DNA of 14,429 nucleotides from Lachnospiraceae bacterium UBA6403. GTDB taxonomy: Bacteria > Bacillota > Clostridia > Lachnospirales > Lachnospiraceae. Below are positions 4,688-14,429 of this stretch, piece by piece. The stretch is from positions 1 to 14,429 of the forward strand of contig DJPV01000009.1 of assembly GCA_002437435.1 (NCBI GenBank), written 5' to 3'. Under the pieces are notes generated by a model. The model saw only the letters and a list, made by a program, of their open reading frames with translations. It had not been told where the DNA came from and ran no database searches. Positions within the stretch are counted from its first letter, which is position 1. Each line of letters begins with the position of its first letter. The position numbers and the translations under genes were made by a program.

Positions 4688-6229
4688 ATGGAAGATTTAT
4701 TTGACGAGAAGCTGTTAGAAGCGATTAAGCTTGCAGAATCTTTGCAGGATGAACAGTCAGAGGGAAAAAAGGCAGACGAAAAAACAGAGTCTGAGAACAG
4801 CAGTCAGATCAGCCGGCCGGAAGAACCGGCTGCTGATCCGGCATCTCAGACAGGTGAAGAAGCTGTTGATCTTCTGATCAAAGAGATTGTGCAGGAAGCG
4901 CAGGATGAGATTGCAGCGGAGGGAATCCGAACAGAAGATATCAAAAAGGATTTTTTTCAAAAGAAAGCGGATAATCAGAAGGAAGAACCGGTCAGAGAAA
5001 AAACTCAGAATCGAAAAAGTGATATTGAGCAAAGCACGGATGAGGAGTTATATATACGTGCGCGGGAACATAAGCGAAAGGGACCGAAAAAGCTGCGTGA
5101 TCCGTGGAGCCTGAAGAAAAAAATAATTGTTGGCGTATTTGTGGCGATCCTTGTTCTGGTCGGAATACCAACAGCCATTCTGGCCTGGATGATAAATCAG
5201 GGGAAAAAACAGCTGGCAGCAAATACAGCGTCAGAGATCATCAGTTTTCATGAGGACGGATCACATTCTACTGCGGTAACCTATAATGGAAAAAATTATG
5301 TATATAATAAAGATATTATATCAATCCTTGTATTTGGAGTAGATAACAGTGAGTACCAGGCACCGAAGGAAAGTTCCTCAGGCAGTCTGAATCTGTATGG
5401 AGAAGAAACAACGGAAGAAACGGACACCAGAGACAGGGATGATGAACTGACATATTCCGATGCAAATGGATCAGAATATATACGATATGGTGGAAGAGTT
5501 GATATGTGTTTCCTGTTTGTATTTAATAAAAAGACAGGAAAGCTGGATGTGATCGATATTAACCGGGACAGCATGACGGATGTCGATATCTGTACAACAA
5601 AGGGTGAGGTCGCACTGGCCGATACGATGCAGGCGGGTCTTGCCTATGGATATGCAGATGGCGGGACGATCAGCTGTCAGAATTTCACAAAGACGATTTC
5701 AGAGATGCTATACAATCTTCCGATTCATGGCTATATCGCGCTGGATATGGAAGGAATAGCAGATATCAATGATGCCGTAAAGGGTGTCACGTTATATGCC
5801 AAAGATACGGTGAGTGAGAATGTATTTGCCAAGGATACGGTGACGCTTGAAGGTGAGGATGCATATCAGTATGTAGAGAAGATGGCAACCAGAGTGGAGA
5901 CACTTGGGGAACATGCAAACCGGATGGCAAGGCAGGAACAGTATCTTACTTTATGGATTGAGCGTTTCCTGCAGCTTTATGGAGACAGCAGGAAAGAAGC
6001 AAAGATCGTATATGAAGCGGCAAAACCATATATGCAGACAAATCTGGATCGAAATGATATCCTGTATTTATATTACCGGATGCATGGTATTGATCTGAAT
6101 GTGACGGAATCGGATGTGATAGATCTGCCGGGCAAATATGAGAGAAACACATATTTTGATGAATACAAATTGGATCAGGATGCGTTAGTTAATTTATTGA
6201 TCCGGGTATTTTATACAGAAAAAGATTAA
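4688..6229 (+). CDS. LCP (LytR-CpsA-Psr) family envelope protein with long cytoplasmic N-terminus
   Basis: A 513-residue type II membrane protein. Residues 1-140 are charged, very acidic at first and basic near 126-145. One membrane span covers about 145-168 (KKKIIVGVFVAILVLVGIPT...), and the rest should lie outside the cell. The outer part carries LCP landmarks: ISILVFGVDN (211-220), GGRVDMCFLFVFN (268-280), DVIDINRDSM (287-296) and ANRMARQEQYL (410-420), giving the expected Arg/Asp set (Asp219, Arg270, Asp272, Arg293, Asp294, Arg412, Arg415). LCP enzymes move lipid-linked glycopolymers such as teichoic acids or capsule onto peptidoglycan. The substrate here is unknown and the sequence is divergent, with an acidic insertion at 225-262. 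Only a weak AAGG lies before the ATG, which suggests translation coupled to glyA 9 bases upstream. Confidence 0.85.
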   Translation: MEDLFDEKLLEAIKLAESLQDEQSEGKKADEKTESENSSQISRPEEPAADPASQTGEEAVDLLIKEIVQEAQDEIAAEGIRTEDIKKDFFQKKADNQKEEPVREKTQNRKSDIEQSTDEELYIRAREHKRKGPKKLRDPWSLKKKIIVGVFVAILVLVGIPTAILAWMINQGKKQLAANTASEIISFHEDGSHSTAVTYNGKNYVYNKDIISILVFGVDNSEYQAPKESSSGSLNLYGEETTEETDTRDRDDELTYSDANGSEYIRYGGRVDMCFLFVFNKKTGKLDVIDINRDSMTDVDICTTKGEVALADTMQAGLAYGYADGGTISCQNFTKTISEMLYNLPIHGYIALDMEGIADINDAVKGVTLYAKDTVSENVFAKDTVTLEGEDAYQYVEKMATRVETLGEHANRMARQEQYLTLWIERFLQLYGDSRKEAKIVYEAAKPYMQTNLDRNDILYLYYRMHGIDLNVTESDVIDLPGKYERNTYFDEYKLDQDALVNLLIRVFYTEKD

Positions 6230-6283: not shown

Positions 6284-6299
6284 TAACCTAGATTTTGCG

Positions 6300-6322
6300 G
6301 ATTCCGTATTTGGAATTTTTTT
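6300..6322 (+). terminator. Weak terminator-like hairpin in the leader
   Basis: ATTCC (6301-6305), a 6-base loop, GGAAT (6312-6316) and a run of Ts to 6322. The stem is short. It could end read-through from the LCP gene or act as an attenuator of the downstream gene, because it lies just after that gene's predicted transcription start. Confidence 0.3.
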
Positions 6323-6357
6323 GCGCAGATGAACGAAGATATGGAGGGTTGCATAAT

Positions 6358-9300
6358 ATGAAAAAATGTGTAAGAAACGTAACGGCGTGGCTGCTAACCA
6401 TTGTAATGGCAGCGGTGACAGTATTTCAGTGGGGAGGGCTGGCGGCAGATTCCGGAGGAACCGTACAGGCGGCAGATCTGATCGACCTGAGTCCTGATAA
6501 TGTAAAAATTAATCTGACAAACATCACGGGTAACTTCCGGTATACGGGATCTCCAATTGAACCGGAATTTTCAGTTACGGTGAACGGACAGACAATCAGT
6601 TCTGATTGTTATACTGTTGAATACAAGGATAATGTAAACCTTCGGAAGGGAAATGAAGCAGCAGAGATATGGATCTATGGTATTGAGAGCAGGGGATATA
6701 CAGGTTCTCAGTATGCATATTTTCATATTATAGAGGGAGATATCTCCAAAGCTGATGTTGCTTTTAAAGGTGATGCATATTACAACAGTACCGGATCGAT
6801 CCTGTATGTACCATATGTAAAACCGGGAGTAATGAATCCGCTTATTGGTAAAGTATCCTATGGAGGAAAAAAGTTAACCGAAAATACGGATTATATATTG
6901 ATAAAGGGAAACGAATTAAAAGAAGTCGGAGGAAATGGAACCCTAACGATTAAAGGAAAATCAAAATCCAACTGGTCATCTTCTTACAGTAAAAAAGTGA
7001 CATGGCAGGTAGTAAAGGCAGATATTGCGTCCGAAAATATCACTATGGAATATGAAAACTGTACTTATGATGGAACAGCAAAGACACCGAAGATCACAAT
7101 AGAGGATTCCAGATTCAGAACCTATTATCCAAGTGCTACTATTGATGGAACTTTGGAAGAGGGTACTGATTATACAGTTACATATGGTGATGCAGCTCAT
7201 GACAATATACAGCCGGGAACCGTAAAAGTAGTGATCACAGGAAAAGGTAATTATTCCGGTTTGGTTGAGAAAGAATTTACGATCAGTGATGACGGAAAGA
7301 ATCAGGATATTTCACAGGCAGATATCACAGTATCGGATGCCACTTATACCGGCGCACAGGTGACTCCGGATGTGAAAGTTGTCTATGCCGGTACAACATT
7401 GGAAAAGGAAAAGGATTATACGGTTCAATATCGAAATAACATAAATGTTGGTACAAAGACTGCAACTGCGGTTATCAGTGGAATGGGTGATTATACAGGT
7501 TCGAAAGATATGAAATTTACGATCAATAAAAAGGATTTGAGTGATCCGACCATTAAGGTTACAGCAAGTGATGTTACATATGCATATGGATCTAATGTTT
7601 CGTCACCTGCAATTACTGTTACAGATACAGTATCGGGAAAAGAATTAACCGGTGGAACATATGGTAAAGATTATACGATCAGTTATCCTACACGCCCTAC
7701 AGAAGTTGGTGACAATTATTCATTTACAATTACGGCAAAGGCAGATTCTAATTATACAGGAACTGCAACGGGCACATACCGGGTGCTGCCACTTGATGTG
7801 TCACAGACGGCACAGGTGACACTGGCACAAACGGAATATGAGTATAACGATGAGGCATTTAAACCTGCCGTAACATCCGTAGTTGTAAATGGAATAACTC
7901 TGGAAGACGGAAAAGATTATGCAGTAGATTATAAGGATAATATAGATGCTGGTGATAAGGCTAAAGTTATTGTTACATTTAAAGGAAATTATACAGGAAG
8001 TGTGACATCATGCTTTACGATCACATCACCGCTTCCAAATGTTAAAGATGCGTCTCTTACAATAGCGGATCAGACATATACAGGAAAACAGATCACTCCG
8101 GATGTAAGTACGATAACGATAGCAGGTCAGACCTTTACAAAGGATAAGGATTATACTGTTACTTACGGGGAGAATAAGAATGTTGGTTATGGTCAGATCA
8201 CATTGATAGGAAATAAACAGACCTGTGCGGGAACTCGCCTGATCGAGTTCAAGATCAATGCAGCGAATATTAGGCAGGCTTGTACCGTGAAGGGTCTGGT
8301 GTCCGGTCAGAAATTCGCATATACAGGTTCTGCGATCATGCCAAAGATATCTGTAACTTATGGGAATATTACTCTGGTTGAGAATGAAGATTATACGATC
8401 CGGTATAGTTCATCGAATCCGGTAAAAGCAGGCTCTTACCATGTGACGATCACTGGTAAAGGTAATTATACAGATCATATAGACCTGTTGTATATGATTA
8501 CTTCCGTTTCTATTGATGGAGCAATTGTTAAATATGCAGAATATGATAATACCTATAATGGAGCTGCAAAAGAACCTAAGGTCACGAGTATTATAACCGA
8601 AGATGGAACTACGATTACAGAGCTGAATGCTTTTGATGTTACATATACAGATAATATAAATTACGGAACAGCTACAATTACAGTAAAACCAAAGAGCACA
8701 AATGGTAAATATACAGGAACTGCAAGTACAACATTTACGATTAAGAAAGCAACTCTTTCAAATGACACCTGTACGATCAGTGCCATTCCGGATCAGACAT
8801 TCACTGAAAGTGAGATCAAACCGGAACCAACACTGACAGTTAACGGAAGAACCCTTGTAAAGGGAACTGATTATACAGTAGTTTACAAAGATAACACAAA
8901 TGTTGGAACAGCAACGATCACTATAAAAGGTCAGGGCAATTATACCGGAACTTATACCGGAAGCTTTACGATCGTAAAGAAGAATGATCCAACACCGGAG
9001 AAGATCAATCTGTCATCCGCTGTAATAACAGTTGCAGATCAGACCTATACCGGAAAAGCATTGACACCAAGCATAACAGTAGTGTTAAATGGAGCGGTTC
9101 TGCCGGCATCTGCTTATACAGTTACATACAGTAACAATGTAAATGTTGGAACAGCAACTGTTACAATCACAGGTAAAGGCAATTATGTTGGAAGCACTTC
9201 GGCGACATTTGCGATCAAGGCAGCAGCAAAGCCTGTTACACCTACTGTAACAAAGCCGGGTAAGGTAAAGGGAATCAGTGTAAAGAGTGTAAAGACAACA

Positions 9301-9813
9301 TCTGCAACCCTGAAATGGAAGAAGGTATCAGGTGCATCCGGTTATATGGTTTACCAGAAGAATCCATCAACCGGTAAGACCAAGCTTGTAAAGACTGTAA
9401 GTTCAAAGACAGTTTCATATAAAGCAACCAAGCTGAAATCAGCAACCAAGTATACATACACGATCTATGCTTACAAATTGTCAGGCAAGACAAAAGTCAG
9501 AGGCTCCGGCACAGCATACACATTTGTTACAAAGCCGGGTGCTGTTAAGAAGACAAAGGCAGTATCCAGGAAGACCAAGACCTGCGTAGTAAGCTGGAAG
9601 AAGACAAAGGGAGCCGATGGTTATGAAGTATACATGGCTACGTCCAAGAAGGGCAAATATAAGAAGATCGGTCAGACAAAGAAATTAACACTTACCAAGA
9701 AGAAATTAAAGAAAGGTAAGACCTGTTATTTCAAAGTCAGAGCGTATAAGACATATAAGGGCAAGAAAACCTATGGTGCTTATACAAAGGTTATAAAAGC
9801 AAAGATCAAATAG
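6358..9813 (+). CDS. Large secreted repeat protein with C-terminal fibronectin III domains
   Basis: This 1151-residue protein is probably exported. Residues 1-39 form a signal peptide (MKKCVRNVTAWLL... to VQA|AD). Residues 49 to about 954 hold eleven diverged repeats of ~75-95 residues. Each follows a pattern of YTG near the start, then a G-x-T-L strand, (K/G)DYTVxYxDNxNVGTATVTI, GKGNYTG and FTI, which looks like a beta-sandwich (Ig-like) unit. Two fibronectin type III domains follow (about 969-1058 and 1062-1151), each with a W-K-K core and an A/G-x-Y-V/T-Y pattern. They are very rich in lysine, mostly AAG codons. I see no LPXTG, SLH or choline-binding anchor and no catalytic motif, so a secreted or electrostatically wall-bound adhesin or scaffold is the best reading. 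GGAGGG (6343-6348) lies 9 bases before the ATG. An in-frame TTG at 6295 would add 21 non-signal-like residues and is rejected. Confidence 0.88.
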   Translation: MKKCVRNVTAWLLTIVMAAVTVFQWGGLAADSGGTVQAADLIDLSPDNVKINLTNITGNFRYTGSPIEPEFSVTVNGQTISSDCYTVEYKDNVNLRKGNEAAEIWIYGIESRGYTGSQYAYFHIIEGDISKADVAFKGDAYYNSTGSILYVPYVKPGVMNPLIGKVSYGGKKLTENTDYILIKGNELKEVGGNGTLTIKGKSKSNWSSSYSKKVTWQVVKADIASENITMEYENCTYDGTAKTPKITIEDSRFRTYYPSATIDGTLEEGTDYTVTYGDAAHDNIQPGTVKVVITGKGNYSGLVEKEFTISDDGKNQDISQADITVSDATYTGAQVTPDVKVVYAGTTLEKEKDYTVQYRNNINVGTKTATAVISGMGDYTGSKDMKFTINKKDLSDPTIKVTASDVTYAYGSNVSSPAITVTDTVSGKELTGGTYGKDYTISYPTRPTEVGDNYSFTITAKADSNYTGTATGTYRVLPLDVSQTAQVTLAQTEYEYNDEAFKPAVTSVVVNGITLEDGKDYAVDYKDNIDAGDKAKVIVTFKGNYTGSVTSCFTITSPLPNVKDASLTIADQTYTGKQITPDVSTITIAGQTFTKDKDYTVTYGENKNVGYGQITLIGNKQTCAGTRLIEFKINAANIRQACTVKGLVSGQKFAYTGSAIMPKISVTYGNITLVENEDYTIRYSSSNPVKAGSYHVTITGKGNYTDHIDLLYMITSVSIDGAIVKYAEYDNTYNGAAKEPKVTSIITEDGTTITELNAFDVTYTDNINYGTATITVKPKSTNGKYTGTASTTFTIKKATLSNDTCTISAIPDQTFTESEIKPEPTLTVNGRTLVKGTDYTVVYKDNTNVGTATITIKGQGNYTGTYTGSFTIVKKNDPTPEKINLSSAVITVADQTYTGKALTPSITVVLNGAVLPASAYTVTYSNNVNVGTATVTITGKGNYVGSTSATFAIKAAAKPVTPTVTKPGKVKGISVKSVKTTSATLKWKKVSGASGYMVYQKNPSTGKTKLVKTVSSKTVSYKATKLKSATKYTYTIYAYKLSGKTKVRGSGTAYTFVTKPGAVKKTKAVSRKTKTCVVSWKKTKGADGYEVYMATSKKGKYKKIGQTKKLTLTKKKLKKGKTCYFKVRAYKTYKGKKTYGAYTKVIKAKIK
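6502..9219 (+). repeat. Eleven tandem protein repeats (Ig-like, YTG/GNYTG type)
   Basis: Repeat units begin near 6502, 6760, 7042, 7327, 7555, 7813, 8053, 8281, 8527, 8773 and 9022, about 230-285 bases each. Units 4, 7, 10 and 11 are the closest to a consensus (DxTYTG...DYTVxY...NVG), while units 1, 2, 5 and 9 are the most diverged. Short near-identical DNA words around GGTAATTATACAGG recur, so recombination between units is possible. Confidence 0.8.
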
Positions 9814-9996: not shown

Positions 9997-10779
9997 TTAT
10001 TTACATAAGATGTTTTTCATATAAGGCATTTCCAGATAATTGTCCGCCTGTTCCTGCAAAAAGGAGATGATATCCTTATAAGGAAAGATTTTTGTCATAC
10101 AATTATCATCAGGAGAGTTCTCTGTATCAGAGCAGACCGCCTGATTACCAGTTTCGAATGCAGTCTGAATTTCAGATTCGGTTGCTTCCGTGGTTCCGAT
10201 ATATGCAGATAAACACTTTTTTATCATTCCGGCATCTTCGGGTATACATTCTTTGATATGTATATCTTCCATTCGGTATGATACATGCTCCGGGACAAAT
10301 GGATGAAACTGTCTGTTCAGAACAGGATTGATCCGGTCATATTCCCCATAGAACCATTTGTCAGAGAAGAATTCTGCAAGCGGGATTCGGTCTGTCTGTC
10401 CTTTGAGCAGTCTTACAAATAAAGGATGCCTGGTATCGACAGAGGAAGCACCGGATTCATCTTCAAAGGCAAAATAATGCTGCCAGAAATCCGTCACATA
10501 ACTGGCGTCCAGCTGTAAATGTGCCAGAATTCCCAGATCAATAGGGGAAAGTCCCTGATCCCCGTACAGAGCATAAACAGCTGCCATATCTGGATATTTT
10601 GTGATCTGATATTTCTGGGATAATGGACGAAAATGGGTTCGCTCTTTATCCGATGTGACATCAGGAAGGATGCATCCAAGCATGAATTCTTCCGCAAATG
10701 TCTGTGGTATGTTTATTTGATTTTTTAAGCGGTTTAAAATTATTTCACCTTCTACAAGGTGCATTAAAAATCCGGGCAT
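9997..10779 (-). CDS. Zinc-dependent phospholipase C-like protein
   Basis: The 260-residue protein has candidate metal ligands in the spacing I associate with the zinc-dependent phospholipase C / S1-P1 nuclease-like helical fold found as single proteins in Clostridia: His7 (PGFLMHLVEGEI), Asp40 (LGCILPDVTSD), His49 (KERTHFRPL) and His87/Asp91 (LGILAHLQLDASYVTDFW), plus His101. No signal peptide is seen, so it probably acts in the cytoplasm, unlike secreted clostridial toxins of that fold. The C-terminal ~90 residues are acidic and not recognised. AGAAGG (forward 10788-10793) lies 8 bases before the ATG, with a promoter further upstream. It is divergent from the zinc-ribbon gene. The fold assignment is moderate and the substrate unknown. 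Confidence 0.65.
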   Translation of the reverse strand: MPGFLMHLVEGEIILNRLKNQINIPQTFAEEFMLGCILPDVTSDKERTHFRPLSQKYQITKYPDMAAVYALYGDQGLSPIDLGILAHLQLDASYVTDFWQHYFAFEDESGASSVDTRHPLFVRLLKGQTDRIPLAEFFSDKWFYGEYDRINPVLNRQFHPFVPEHVSYRMEDIHIKECIPEDAGMIKKCLSAYIGTTEATESEIQTAFETGNQAVCSDTENSPDDNCMTKIFPYKDIISFLQEQADNYLEMPYMKNILCK

Positions 10780-10803
10780 CGTCCTGACCTTCTTTCTCTG
10801 ATA

Positions 10804-10832
10804 ATAATAGATAGTTTATAGTGGGGTGTCAA
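10804..10832 (-). promoter_or_regulatory. Sigma-A promoter of the phospholipase-like gene
   Basis: On the minus strand, a perfect TTGACA (forward 10827-10832), 17 bases and TATTAT (forward 10804-10809). It is about 25 bases before the coding start. Confidence 0.65.
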
Positions 10833-10868
10833 GCGCGGAGAAATAAGATGTTCCATTCATTTCCGGTG

Positions 10869-10897
10869 TTGACGAAATATGGAAAAGGCTTTAAAGT
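10869..10897 (+). promoter_or_regulatory. Sigma-A promoter of the zinc-ribbon gene
   Basis: TTGACG (10869-10874), 17 bases, TAAAGT (10892-10897). The start would be near 10904, followed by a ~34-base leader to the ATG at 10938. It is back to back with the minus-strand promoter, with the two -35 boxes 36 bases apart. Confidence 0.55.
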
Positions 10898-10937
10898 AAA
10901 CGACAGAAGTACATTTGTTAGAAAAGAGGTGCGGTAT

Positions 10938-12155
10938 ATGGGTACAAAGATTTGTCCGATTTGTGACAGCCCGGTAAATAGTATTAATTTTTGTAAGACA
11001 TGTAAGCGGTTTGTCACGCCGATCGAAAATAATCATACATTTTATCTGAATGAGAGACGAAGCGATGTAGATTACCAGCGTGATTATAATTTCGATGGAG
11101 ATGCCTATGATTATAGTGCAGATAAGAAGGAGGTAGAAGATACAGTATCTGACTGTCACGATGAATTTGAATTCGGCAGGGATGAGCGAAAGGATTTTCA
11201 TGACGAATTCGGATCGGATCATAATGAAGATTACAACTGGCAGGAGGAGCAGAAAACATATTCTGGTAAACAGGATGGTAAGATAAAGTCGACAGAGGGA
11301 GAATGGAAATCCTGGCAGAATCGTACGCCGGGAACTCCATATAATACAGGAAAAAAGAAAAAGAAAGCATTTGTGATTGCTATCATCGGTGCTATTTTTG
11401 GCTTATGCTGTGAATTTTTACCGGTCATATTTGATCATATAAAGGATGATTCATATGAGTCAGATACAGAAGATGAGTATATAGAAGATGATACTTATAC
11501 GGAATGGGATGAAGAGGATGTAGATGATGCATCACTTGTTGCTCCGGATGGCTATATGTATTATACTGCGCCTGGAGAAAAACAGGGATCAGACGGCAAC
11601 TATTATACAGCCCTTTCTGCAGAAAAAGTATCGGAAGATGGCGGAGAATGTACATTAGTTGGACATTATGATGGTGTGACTATGACAGATTTTGAATCTG
11701 ATATGCTGGCAGGTGCACAGGATATGGGAATTGATCTGCAGGCAGATGAGTATGGCAGATATCTTGGACTATATAAGTATGACGATGGAAATACCTGCTA
11801 TGAAAAAAAGGATACATTTTATGCAGATATGGGATTTCTTCGTGTTGCCGTCTATGGAGATTATAATTCTGACAGAATCCATTCATTGATGATCGCACAG
11901 AAGATTCAGGATGATAATGACTATTACCGTATGGATGATATATATACGATAATTGCAAATGCTCTTGATGAGCCTGATCTGGAATCTGGAAGCGGTTACG
12001 ATTCTATTATAGCAGGACTCCATACGTTGCGGGATGCAACGGATACATCAGATGAAACAGGGAATAATTATACAGAAGTACATGTGGGAGAATGGGAGAT
12101 ATCAGTCTCACGCATGGGCGGTTATCTGTATATAGATCTGTATGTAAATAAGTAA
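10938..12155 (+). CDS. Zinc-ribbon, single-span membrane protein of unknown function
   Basis: I do not recognise a named family. The 405-residue protein starts with a four-cysteine zinc ribbon (Cys6, Cys9, Cys19, Cys22; CPICDSPVNSINFCKTC). A very acidic, Asp/Glu/Tyr-rich linker covers about 40-135. A basic KKKKK precedes one membrane span (about 143-165, FVIAIIGAIFGLCCEFLPVIF), then a second acidic linker (168-200) leads to an extracytoplasmic domain (about 200-405) without known motifs. The order zinc ribbon / linker / TM / outer domain resembles many Firmicute zinc-ribbon membrane proteins of unknown role. I choose the ATG at 10938 because AGAGGT (10925-10930) sits 7 bases before it and the promoter lies just upstream. 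An upstream in-frame GTG at 10821 would begin before that promoter. ftsH follows but has its own promoter. Confidence 0.8.
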   Translation: MGTKICPICDSPVNSINFCKTCKRFVTPIENNHTFYLNERRSDVDYQRDYNFDGDAYDYSADKKEVEDTVSDCHDEFEFGRDERKDFHDEFGSDHNEDYNWQEEQKTYSGKQDGKIKSTEGEWKSWQNRTPGTPYNTGKKKKKAFVIAIIGAIFGLCCEFLPVIFDHIKDDSYESDTEDEYIEDDTYTEWDEEDVDDASLVAPDGYMYYTAPGEKQGSDGNYYTALSAEKVSEDGGECTLVGHYDGVTMTDFESDMLAGAQDMGIDLQADEYGRYLGLYKYDDGNTCYEKKDTFYADMGFLRVAVYGDYNSDRIHSLMIAQKIQDDNDYYRMDDIYTIIANALDEPDLESGSGYDSIIAGLHTLRDATDTSDETGNNYTEVHVGEWEISVSRMGGYLYIDLYVNK

Positions 12156-12220: not shown

Positions 12221-12291
12221 GAATGCGAAATTATCAGAAATACATACAAAAGAAAGATACAGCAGAAAAACTGTATAAAAGGAGGTTTCGA

Positions 12292-14163
12292 TTGGACAAT
12301 AATTTACCGGAAAACAGTAACAATAATAACAACAGCAATAACAATAATAATGGAAATAAAGGGAAAAACAATCGATCGATCATTGTGATCCTGGTTATCT
12401 CCATTTTGCTGACATTTTTATTCTGGCAGGTATTTGACCGTGTGTCATCAGGCAGAGAGGAAGAAGTCACATATGGTCAGTTCATCGAGATGTTAGATAA
12501 AGGTGAAGTTGGTTCTGTAAAGATCTATGGAAGCAAGATCGTATTTGAAAATAATGCCGATGATAAGCTGATCAGTAAGACCAAATATACAGCAACCAGA
12601 ATATCGGATGACAGTCTGGCAGAGAAACTTCGTCAGGCAAAAACGAAATATGGAACAGAATATGAAGGTGTAGATGAGAGTGGAAGTGCTATGGTCGGCA
12701 CAATCATTTCTTATATTGTGATGATCGTCGCGTTCTATCTGCTGTTATCAATGATCATGAAACGAAGCGGCGGCGTAGGCAGAGCAAATGCAAAGATCTA
12801 TGTTGAGAAGAAGACAGGCGTTACCTTTGCGGATGTAGCCGGTGAGGAAGAAGCGAAGGAGTCGCTGACTGAGATGGTGGATTTCCTTCACAATCCGAAG
12901 AAATATCTGGATATCGGTGCAAAGCTGCCCAAGGGTGCGCTGCTTGTGGGTCCTCCGGGAACCGGTAAGACTCTGCTTGCAAAAGCTGTGGCAGGTGAGG
13001 CAAATGTACCATTCTTCTCCATGTCCGGTTCAAGTTTTGTAGAGATGTATGTCGGTGTCGGTGCATCCCGTGTCAGAGATCTTTTCAAACAGGCGACACA
13101 GATGGCACCTTGTATCATATTTATCGATGAGATCGATGCGATCGGAAGAAGCAGAGATTCCAGACACGGTGGAGATTCCGAACGGGAGCAGACATTGAAC
13201 CAGCTCCTTGCAGAGATGGATGGCTTTGATACATCAAAGGGTATCGTGATCCTTGCGGCAACGAACCGTCCGGAGGTACTTGATAAAGCGCTCCTTCGCC
13301 CGGGAAGATTTGACCGTAGAGTTATCGTAGAGAAGCCGGATCTGAAGGGAAGAATCGATACACTGAAGGTTCATTCGAAGAATGTCAAGATGGATGAGTC
13401 AGTTGATCTTCGTGAACTTGCACTGGCAACCTCGGGTGCAGTCGGCGCGGATCTTGCAAATATTATAAACGAAGGTGCACTGGCAGCGGTAAGAGATGGC
13501 AGAAGTCTGGTTTCTCAGCAGGATCTGATCGGAGCAGTAGAAGTTGTATTTGCCGGAAAAGAGAAGAAGGATCGTCTGCTCAGTAAAGAAGAAAAACAGA
13601 TTGTTGCCTACCATGAAGTCGGACATGCGTTGCTCGCTGCACTTCAGAAGAATACAGAACCAATCCAGAGAATTACGATCGTTCCAAGAACAATGGGTTC
13701 TCTTGGTTATGTATGGCAGATTCCGGAGGAAGAAAAATATCTCGAATCCAAGAAAGAACTGGAAGCAGAGCTTGTAACCCTGCTCGGCGGACGTGCTGCA
13801 GAAGAGTTGAAATTTGACTCTGTAACGACCGGAGCATCTAATGATATCGAGAAGGCAACCAAGACAGCCAGAGCCATGATAACCATGTATGGTATGTCGG
13901 ACAAATTCGGTATGGTGCAGCTCGAATCGATAGAGGGACAGTATCTGGATAGAAATCTTGCACTTCAATGTTCGGATGAGACTGCAACAAAGATCGATAA
14001 GGAGATCCGCGATATGCTGCGGGATTCTTACAACAAGGCAAAGAAACTTTTGTCTGCTCATATGGCAGCTCTGGATTCTATCGCCTGCTTCCTGATAGAA
14101 CACGAAACGATCACCGGCAAAGAATTCATGTCGATTCTTGCTCAGGTGGAACCTCAGAAATAG
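12292..14163 (+). CDS. ftsH: ATP-dependent zinc metalloprotease FtsH (TTG start)
   Basis: This 623-residue membrane AAA+ protease degrades misassembled membrane proteins and short-lived regulators as a hexamer. Seen in order: an Asn-rich cytoplasmic tail (residues 3-22), TM1 (about 29-49), a short outer domain, TM2 (about 135-156), Walker A GPPGTGKT (220-227), Walker B IIFIDEID (Asp279/Glu280), the second region of homology ATNRPEVLDKALLRPGRFDR with arginine fingers Arg336/Arg339, and the zinc site HEVGH (His441, Glu442, His445) with Asp518 in TTGASNDIEKAT as third ligand. Everything needed for activity is present. GGAGGT (12281-12286) lies 5 bases before a TTG at 12292. The in-frame ATG at 12223 lacks a ribosome site and lies before the predicted transcription start, so the annotation should begin at TTG. 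Confidence 0.95.
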   Translation: MDNNLPENSNNNNNSNNNNNGNKGKNNRSIIVILVISILLTFLFWQVFDRVSSGREEEVTYGQFIEMLDKGEVGSVKIYGSKIVFENNADDKLISKTKYTATRISDDSLAEKLRQAKTKYGTEYEGVDESGSAMVGTIISYIVMIVAFYLLLSMIMKRSGGVGRANAKIYVEKKTGVTFADVAGEEEAKESLTEMVDFLHNPKKYLDIGAKLPKGALLVGPPGTGKTLLAKAVAGEANVPFFSMSGSSFVEMYVGVGASRVRDLFKQATQMAPCIIFIDEIDAIGRSRDSRHGGDSEREQTLNQLLAEMDGFDTSKGIVILAATNRPEVLDKALLRPGRFDRRVIVEKPDLKGRIDTLKVHSKNVKMDESVDLRELALATSGAVGADLANIINEGALAAVRDGRSLVSQQDLIGAVEVVFAGKEKKDRLLSKEEKQIVAYHEVGHALLAALQKNTEPIQRITIVPRTMGSLGYVWQIPEEEKYLESKKELEAELVTLLGGRAAEELKFDSVTTGASNDIEKATKTARAMITMYGMSDKFGMVQLESIEGQYLDRNLALQCSDETATKIDKEIRDMLRDSYNKAKKLLSAHMAALDSIACFLIEHETITGKEFMSILAQVEPQK

Positions 14164-14167
14164 GTGC

Positions 14168-14340
14168 AATACCGTACATGGACGGTTATATCACACAACT
14201 ATTATTCCGCAAGACGCTTGCGCTCTATTTCCACGCAACGGTGCTAAGTTCTCCGCCGATGGCGGTTCACTAAGAACCGGCGTGGAAAAAGGCTTGCTGC
14301 ATAACAGTATGTAATATAACCGTCCATGTGCGGTATTTTT
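14168..14340 (+). ncRNA. Structured element closed by a 24-bp inverted repeat, 3' of ftsH
   Basis: The left arm (14168-14191, AATACCGTACATGG...) and right arm (14314-14337) are inverted copies over 24 bases with one difference, which is a G-U pair in plus-strand RNA. A T-run (14336-14340) ends the right arm. Inside are a hairpin CGCAAG-ACG-CTTGCG (14208-14222), a perfect 9-bp stem TTTCCACGC/GCGTGGAAA (14228-14236 / 14280-14288) and, within it, CCGCC-GAT-GGCGG (14253-14265) enclosed by GTTCT/AGAAC (14248-14252 / 14273-14277), with GGTTC/GAACC as a competing pairing. It begins 4 bases after the ftsH stop. It could be a complex terminator, a processed 3' RNA or a MITE-type repeat. I do not recognise a known RNA family, and no clear target duplication is seen. 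Confidence 0.5.
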
Positions 14341-14350
14341 GATATCTCCT

Positions 14351-14400
14351 AAAAAACATATACCACAGCATAGTTGCAATATGTCGTAGTGGTTTTTATA
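14351..14400. terminator. Terminator-like hairpin, possibly bidirectional
   Basis: An A-run (14351-14356), ACCAC (14362-14366), inner GCATA/TATGT pairing (14368-14372 / 14380-14384), GTGGT (14389-14393) and a T-run to 14397. The tracts on both sides would allow function on either strand. Confidence 0.5.
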
Positions 14401-14402
14401 TA

Positions 14403-14428
14403 TAAAAATGCCGTTTTTGACGTGGCAT
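14403..14428 (-). terminator. Terminator for a minus-strand gene beyond the right edge
   Basis: On the minus strand, ATGCC, an 11-base loop, GGCAT (forward 14408-14428) and then TTTTATA. The short GC-containing stem with a U-run suggests that a gene to the right ends here, convergent with ftsH. Confidence 0.4.
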
Positions 14429-14429
14429 G

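Follow-up and report, generated by a model that had tools for sequence, protein, structure and literature searches.

Integron attC sites have a fold that is more conserved than the sequence of their arms, and they are recognized as folded single strands. The repeat family described here is like attC sites in principle only, in that its fold is conserved beyond the arm sequence. It is like MITEs of the ERIC, RUP, and Correia type in being short and highly paired, in occurring as many, mainly intergenic copies, and in bearing terminal inverted repeats and, in one genome (G001), direct repeats; it is unlike them in that its inner core is conserved across genomes with compensatory changes, whereas its ends and arms diverge. 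BOX elements of Streptococcus pneumoniae are likewise intergenic, are predicted to give a structured transcript, and reach or supply an upstream stop codon; in 36 of 58 annotated overlaps, the upstream gene takes its stop codon from the BOX element (PMC3049150). The present family differs from BOX in its host family, in having matches across a whole bacterial family, and in that no modular boxA-B-C array was seen. REP and REPIN sequences, which occur with TnpA_REP and carry a GTAG or CGTC tag, are extragenic palindromes like the present repeats, and as here some form inverted pairs. REPs are 20–40 bp long and GTAG REPs likewise reach or supply stop codons (PMC3733652). The repeats here are 170–200 bp long, outside that size range, with a three-helix core and no association with Y1 in Lachnospira.

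We found no earlier description of the Lachnospiraceae family in the titles and beginnings of abstracts of the papers listed. The family is apparently undescribed, although MITE, BOX, and REP are known kinds of repeat. A survey that lists 3161 candidate microbiome RNAs, of which 250 are palindromic, may include part of it (PMC8040213).

Structure of the element behind ftsH

The window, by which we mean the whole 14,429-nt stretch of contig DJPV01000009.1 from Lachnospiraceae bacterium UBA6403, carries ftsH on the plus strand at 12223–14163 (FtsH_fam, 730.6 bits). The element follows in sense orientation, running in the same direction as ftsH after a gap of 4 nt from the stop codon, and its 173 nt leave space for at most 57 codons. 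Its left outer arm (24 nt, 14168–14191, plus strand) is complementary at 23 of 24 positions to the right outer arm (14314–14337, plus strand), and the two form the outermost helix of the predicted fold. The initial annotation had described a multi-hairpin element enclosed by a 24-bp inverted repeat, and our analysis bore this out. No other 24-bp inverted repeat in the window pairs within 200 nt with one mismatch or fewer, and three single-base shuffles of the window produced none. The plus-strand fold reached −83.5 kcal/mol against −42.2 ± 4.2 kcal/mol for 200 dinucleotide shuffles (z = −9.8), none of which folded as well. That annotation placed the end of the element at 14340, which takes in three Ts past the right arm; the run of five Ts at 14336–14340 begins within the last two bases of the arm.

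The conserved core of the repeat family lies inside the arms at 14204–14301 on the plus strand, where it scores 82.2 bits with the family's covariance model (R1, below), a match obtained by construction, since R1 was built from 13 sequences that include the window copy. A small hairpin, CGCAAG/CTTGCG, occupies 14208–14222; its 3′ part contains the family motif CGCTNNCGCT, and its eight CGCT/CGCT columns are invariant in all 13 aligned sequences. The long central hairpin (14229–14287, plus strand), defined by the predicted fold and covariation, is built from a stem of TTCCACGC (14229–14236) with GCGTGGAA (14280–14287), a stem of CGGT (14239–14242) with ACCG (14276–14279), a CTAAG (14244–14248) opposite a second CTAAG (14270–14274), and a variable apical hairpin (14253–14265). 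The nested stems noted at the outset were all recovered, the 9-bp stem and the two 5-bp stems in the predicted fold and the 6-bp stem as CGCAAG/CTTGCG. A proposed switch between the pairings GTTCT/AGAAC and GGTTC/GAACC fared worse: the competing GGTTC/GAACC pairing is present as letters in the window element, but GGTTC (14264–14268) overlaps the apical hairpin that varies among copies, and the switch is therefore not a feature of the family.

The whole unit possibly spans 14161–14351 on the plus strand, as it would then start with TAGG and end with CCTA, as is usual for units in G001; the TAG of this TAGG is the ftsH stop codon (14161–14163). Past the element, positions 14360–14429 hold more hairpin-like sequence with T runs, seen by eye and absent from the terminator-scan list, and this is possibly the true ftsH terminator. 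Upstream of ftsH, the window encodes a 1172-aa protein with a GH85_C/fn3-like stretch (6295–9813) and two ORFs of 260 and 444 aa without a Pfam match (9997–12155); the ORF at 10821–12152 had no match in NCBIfam or Pfam.

An Rfam comparison, suggested from the start, gave no match to the element up to E = 1; elsewhere in the window it gave two, both far below their gathering scores. Phage and plasmid records held no match to the element. A viral origin was rejected, as a 17-base arm pattern occurred in six viral contigs, none of which carried the 12-mer of the opposite arm in the stretches examined.

A repeat family in Lachnospiraceae genomes

A BLAST search with the element as query, covering 397 genomes from the bacterial family of G001, matched 12 genomes, six of them at two places each, with nearly all matches confined to the inner ~70 nt. 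When these loci were read out, they proved to share a common core inside unrelated long arms. The seed alignment consisted of the window copy and 12 loci; five loci were left out by eye as chance-looking (L087, L089, L096, L097, and L099) and four as coming from genomes already represented (L098, L102, L103, and L104). RNAalifold found 25 pairs in this 13-sequence alignment, 16 of which had changed on both sides. The covariance model R1, covering the core of ~100 nt, matched 168 of the 397 sampled Lachnospiraceae genomes at E ≤ 0.01, a threshold at which about four of the 397 genomes could match by chance and which admits some genomes with a best E above 0.001. Copies are undercounted in this survey, as at most nine candidates were scored per genome under strict filters. 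Present in about four of every ten genomes sampled, the family would make up a substantial share of gut-commensal mobile DNA, and one that lacks annotation.

When 150 candidates per genome were scored, R1 found 45 copies in G334, 44 in G001, 34 in G052, and 15 in G375. Among the genomes reached via ftsH loci (below), that of Mediterraneibacter catenae had 25 matches and that of Lactobacillus rogosae ATCC 27753 had 22, and the Roseburia faecis and Blautia caecimuris genomes had none. The genus of G013, inferred from the L. rogosae record to be Lachnospira, had matches at E ≤ 1e-4 in 16 of 22 genomes and no match in the other six. Across a sample of the phylum (13 candidates scored per genome), four of 299 genomes matched at E ≤ 1e-4, and all four (G001, G184, G211, and G265) are within the Lachnospiraceae sample too.

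The position of the window copy had raised the possibility of a stable 3′ end belonging to ftsH. We kept 80 FtsH loci, mainly from Lachnospiraceae and other Eubacteriales and often with flanks cut by contig ends, and R1 matched at only two of them, located downstream of the gene by ~1.0 kb in L010 and ~1.2 kb in L074, and on this count we rejected an ftsH-linked RNA; 6 of the 14 genomes reached via ftsH loci match R1. The BLAST search and covariance model, which had been put forward as the way to tell these readings apart, led to covarying stems at varied loci and not to a tie to ftsH. At L010, a second long inverted repeat with several hairpins was seen by eye immediately behind ftsH (5810–6070); R1 has no match there.

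Some genomes carry more elaborate arrangements. In G334, mosaic intergenic arrays combine two core types with other repeats, including GTCATTCTGAGCGAAGCGAAGAATCTTT (L178, 1–4101). Convergent core pairs with starts 220–430 bp apart, and in one pair ~1.06 kb apart, occur in G052 (L139–L148) and G375 (L149–L153). The two halves of the G052 pairs end differently, in ATTTAAAAATCTC and GCGAAACTC, which suggests a composite unit.

The oddity of the family is its inverted conservation: the folded core is kept, and the long arms can change together from copy to copy. The share of cells that pair is 92.6% in a set of 55 distinct cores and 75.6% after shuffling; both sides have changed in 19 of the 25 pairs, in 265 cells compared with 78.9 when shuffled. 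None of 500 shuffles reached any of the five measures, and sliding the partner by one column lowered core pairing to 34–40%. This covariation comes in part from model fitting and relatedness, as fitted alignments lean to standard pairs including G-U, and the copies and rows in these covariation counts, as in the position and GU/AC counts below, were de-duplicated by identical sequence and not by phylogeny.

The arms follow a different course. Seven G013 copies, selected out of 13 loci because they are of a single core type, have a mean pairwise identity of 40% over the arms (15 nt) against 95.5% over the core (first 44 nt), and each of their arms pairs with its own partner at 15–18 of 18 positions. 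Orthologous copies in related species (L298 and L303) show, by eye, matched changes in both arms, and at one of the orthologous sites described below (site 1) matched changes were seen by eye in the apical hairpin. Arm turnover is not general, as most copies read in G404 have one arm sequence in common (L279–L282; L249 differs). Guide-like arms were considered and rejected: at the 13 G013 loci, arms match their own flanks no better than other flanks, with longest matches of 8–10 nt to their own and 7–12 nt (once 17) to those of other loci. At one orthologous site, L293 and L294 have, by eye, kept the outer arms around unrelated interiors.

Probable mobility of the copies

The G001 unit is ~202 bp long and has terminal inverted repeats. 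A unit search in which 40 of 81 candidates were scored gave 67 matches, most of which run from position 1 or 8 to ~202; among the matches listed, none has its left and right halves split around an ORF. Of 30 G001 loci examined, a near-full unit and sufficient flank were available in 17. Among these 17 copies, 12 start with TAGG and 14 end with CCTA, with ends of the ATTGCGAAACTC / GAGTTTCGCAAT type inside. Perfect direct repeats of 10–14 bp flank 7 of the 17 copies and several more have imperfect ones; two score zero and others are weak. The mean direct-repeat score, from lengths of 5–14 and with one or two bases that may be part of the unit end, was 7.53, compared with 2.44 when partners were shuffled and a maximum of 4.06 in 200 shuffles. 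This test of target duplication covers G001. Several G001 copies sit at contig ends, and the repeat thus seems to break assemblies.

Gain and loss were also visible between species. At two orthologous sites in five Lachnospira species, a copy is present in G704, G709, and G718 and absent from G715 and G719, and each empty site is, by eye, a short gap from the stop of one gene to the start region of the next. Such filled and empty sites let arm turnover, gain, and loss be measured.

Short size, dispersal in many copies, terminal inverted repeats with target-site duplication in G001, and filled and empty sites are features of MITEs, and because of them we regard the element as probably belonging to a family of MITE-type repeats, short, mobile, and non-autonomous, that extends across the Lachnospiraceae. 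This had been among the initial guesses, with many copies and target duplications as the expected sign; that sign was found in G001, and the window copy has, by eye, no convincing duplication at its flanks. The composite units with two facing cores in some genomes argue against a simple MITE. In the search for an autonomous partner, no recognizable transposase was found in the 12 largest clusters of flanking ORFs, of which 70 residues of one member each were read by eye. The unit may be moved in trans by a transposase, probably that of an IS that makes 10–12-bp target duplications. Duplications of this length fit IS4-group elements.

A REP/REPIN-like system, in which a Y1 (HUH) enzyme of the TnpA_REP type cuts and pastes the folded, single-stranded core and the inverted pairs are REPIN-like units, would also suit several features: the repeats are extragenic palindromes, G052 and G375 have convergent pairs, unpaired motifs between stems are conserved, and the GU/AC balance reported below is of the DNA type. 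We consider such a system quite unlikely. Y1_Tnp is found in 8 of 16 copy-positive but 5 of 6 copy-negative Lachnospira genomes (some matches in these 22 genomes are fragments), a distribution on which we rejected a link to a Y1 transposase, and direct repeats of 10–14 bp are not known as a mark of the HUH route.

That the outer arms are pre-existing palindromes or terminators, with a smaller element inserted in their loop, is very improbable. Arms that differ among copies around a nearly identical core, and a window arm that ends in a T run, are what such insertions would leave. However, several G013 copies share a motif outside their variable arms (by eye), most G001 units end in shared terminal repeats outside the arms, and no such palindrome is apparent by eye at either empty site.

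Constraint on the fold and position relative to genes

The family is mainly intergenic and biased to the sense side 3′ of genes. With ORFs called mechanically, 22 of 162 copies lie inside an ORF of at least 90 aa and 140 outside. Between co-directional genes, 55 of these 140 are in sense and 21 in antisense orientation; a further 29 are flanked by convergent genes and 19 by divergent ones, and for 16 one neighbor is missing. A same-strand stop occurs within 200 nt upstream of the core in 182 of 277 copies, the window copy included, and an opposite-strand stop within 200 nt downstream in 71 of 277.

Covariation alone is no proof of RNA, and the balance of G-U to A-C cells offers a cheap second test. 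The model's pairs in 253 distinct cores hold 199 G-U and 145 A-C (p = 0.004 for equality), whereas tRNA acceptor stems, with seven acceptor pairs counted by position in 75 tRNAs, gave 45:1 (Fisher p = 4.7e-9 against the cores). Arm pairs outside the core, from 163 distinct copies, hold 244 G-U and 195 A-C. Divided by context, the GU:AC ratio of the cores is 91:71 where the only neighbor is a sense gene upstream (119 copies), 13:17 where it is an opposite-strand gene downstream (20), 38:22 with both neighbors (47), and 57:35 with neither (67). As G-U is only slightly above A-C, unlike in tRNA, the balance favors a main constraint on the fold that is DNA-borne. A weak RNA-level effect is also compatible with it, as the reversal to 13:17 is in the predicted direction, in few cells.

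These counts bear on whether the repeats are instead a structured-RNA family, a 3′-UTR or small RNA duplicated around genomes, whose compensatory changes keep a fold that stabilizes or terminates transcripts. The strong covariation would suit such a family, and so would two terminator-like sites found within the element where 0.3 were expected in the region. The excess of G-U over A-C, its reversal in copies with only an opposite-strand gene, and the sense bias all lie in the direction predicted for an RNA role and count against the MITE reading. A functional RNA would nevertheless be expected to show G-U far above A-C, and the cores do not, even in the copies with only a sense gene upstream. 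Presence and absence at orthologous sites, direct repeats around copies, the lack of an Rfam match, and the lack of a tie to ftsH also speak against this reading, and we hold it to be unlikely. Of the initial suggestion of an unnamed RNA family, then, the covarying stems stood and the RNA-like balance of pairs did not. Similarly, the sole arm mismatch, T14175 opposite G14330, can form a U-G wobble only on the plus strand, as had been pointed out, but the hint of RNA selection drawn from it is not sustained given the balance in the cores.

Returning to a mobile repeat of the MITE type, the core hairpin, as a DNA cruciform or a single strand, would be needed for movement or for replication-linked copying. 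The arms would drift and yet stay self-complementary, either through hairpin-templated repair that copies one arm anew from its partner or through selection for pairing. Our preferred guess combines hairpin-templated arm copying with a protein that reads the folded core. We offer only tentatively the wider proposal that the DNA fold, and not the terminal sequence, is the conserved determinant, with some enzyme recognizing the single-stranded or cruciform core and the arms rewritten, copy by copy, by hairpin-templated copying. The copy behind ftsH lies at the stop codon, whose TAG it may itself supply; the ftsH transcript would carry at its 3′ end a very stable hairpin that might also act to some extent as a terminator. 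Any such effect on the host gene would be a by-product and not the reason for the element's existence.

Position at stop codons was most regular in the Mediterraneibacter catenae genome (G404), where it raises a sharp question about target choice. An upstream gene of the kind counted above precedes 21 of its 25 copies, and in 17 of these 21 the stop ends 47–49 nt before the core, a spacing that is looser in other genomes. Among copies with a fixed-pattern start, 14 of 15 either follow the stop codon immediately or overlap it by its final A, and the genes concerned are unrelated (L279–L282, L363–L375). The far end was located in five copies and lies at most ~2 nt from a convergent stop in three of them (L282, L368, and L370). 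Other sequences with a similar, AATTC-type start were seen in the genus of G404 right behind the stop of one gene, which by eye appears to be rnfB-like (L414–L417, L423, L425, and L426).
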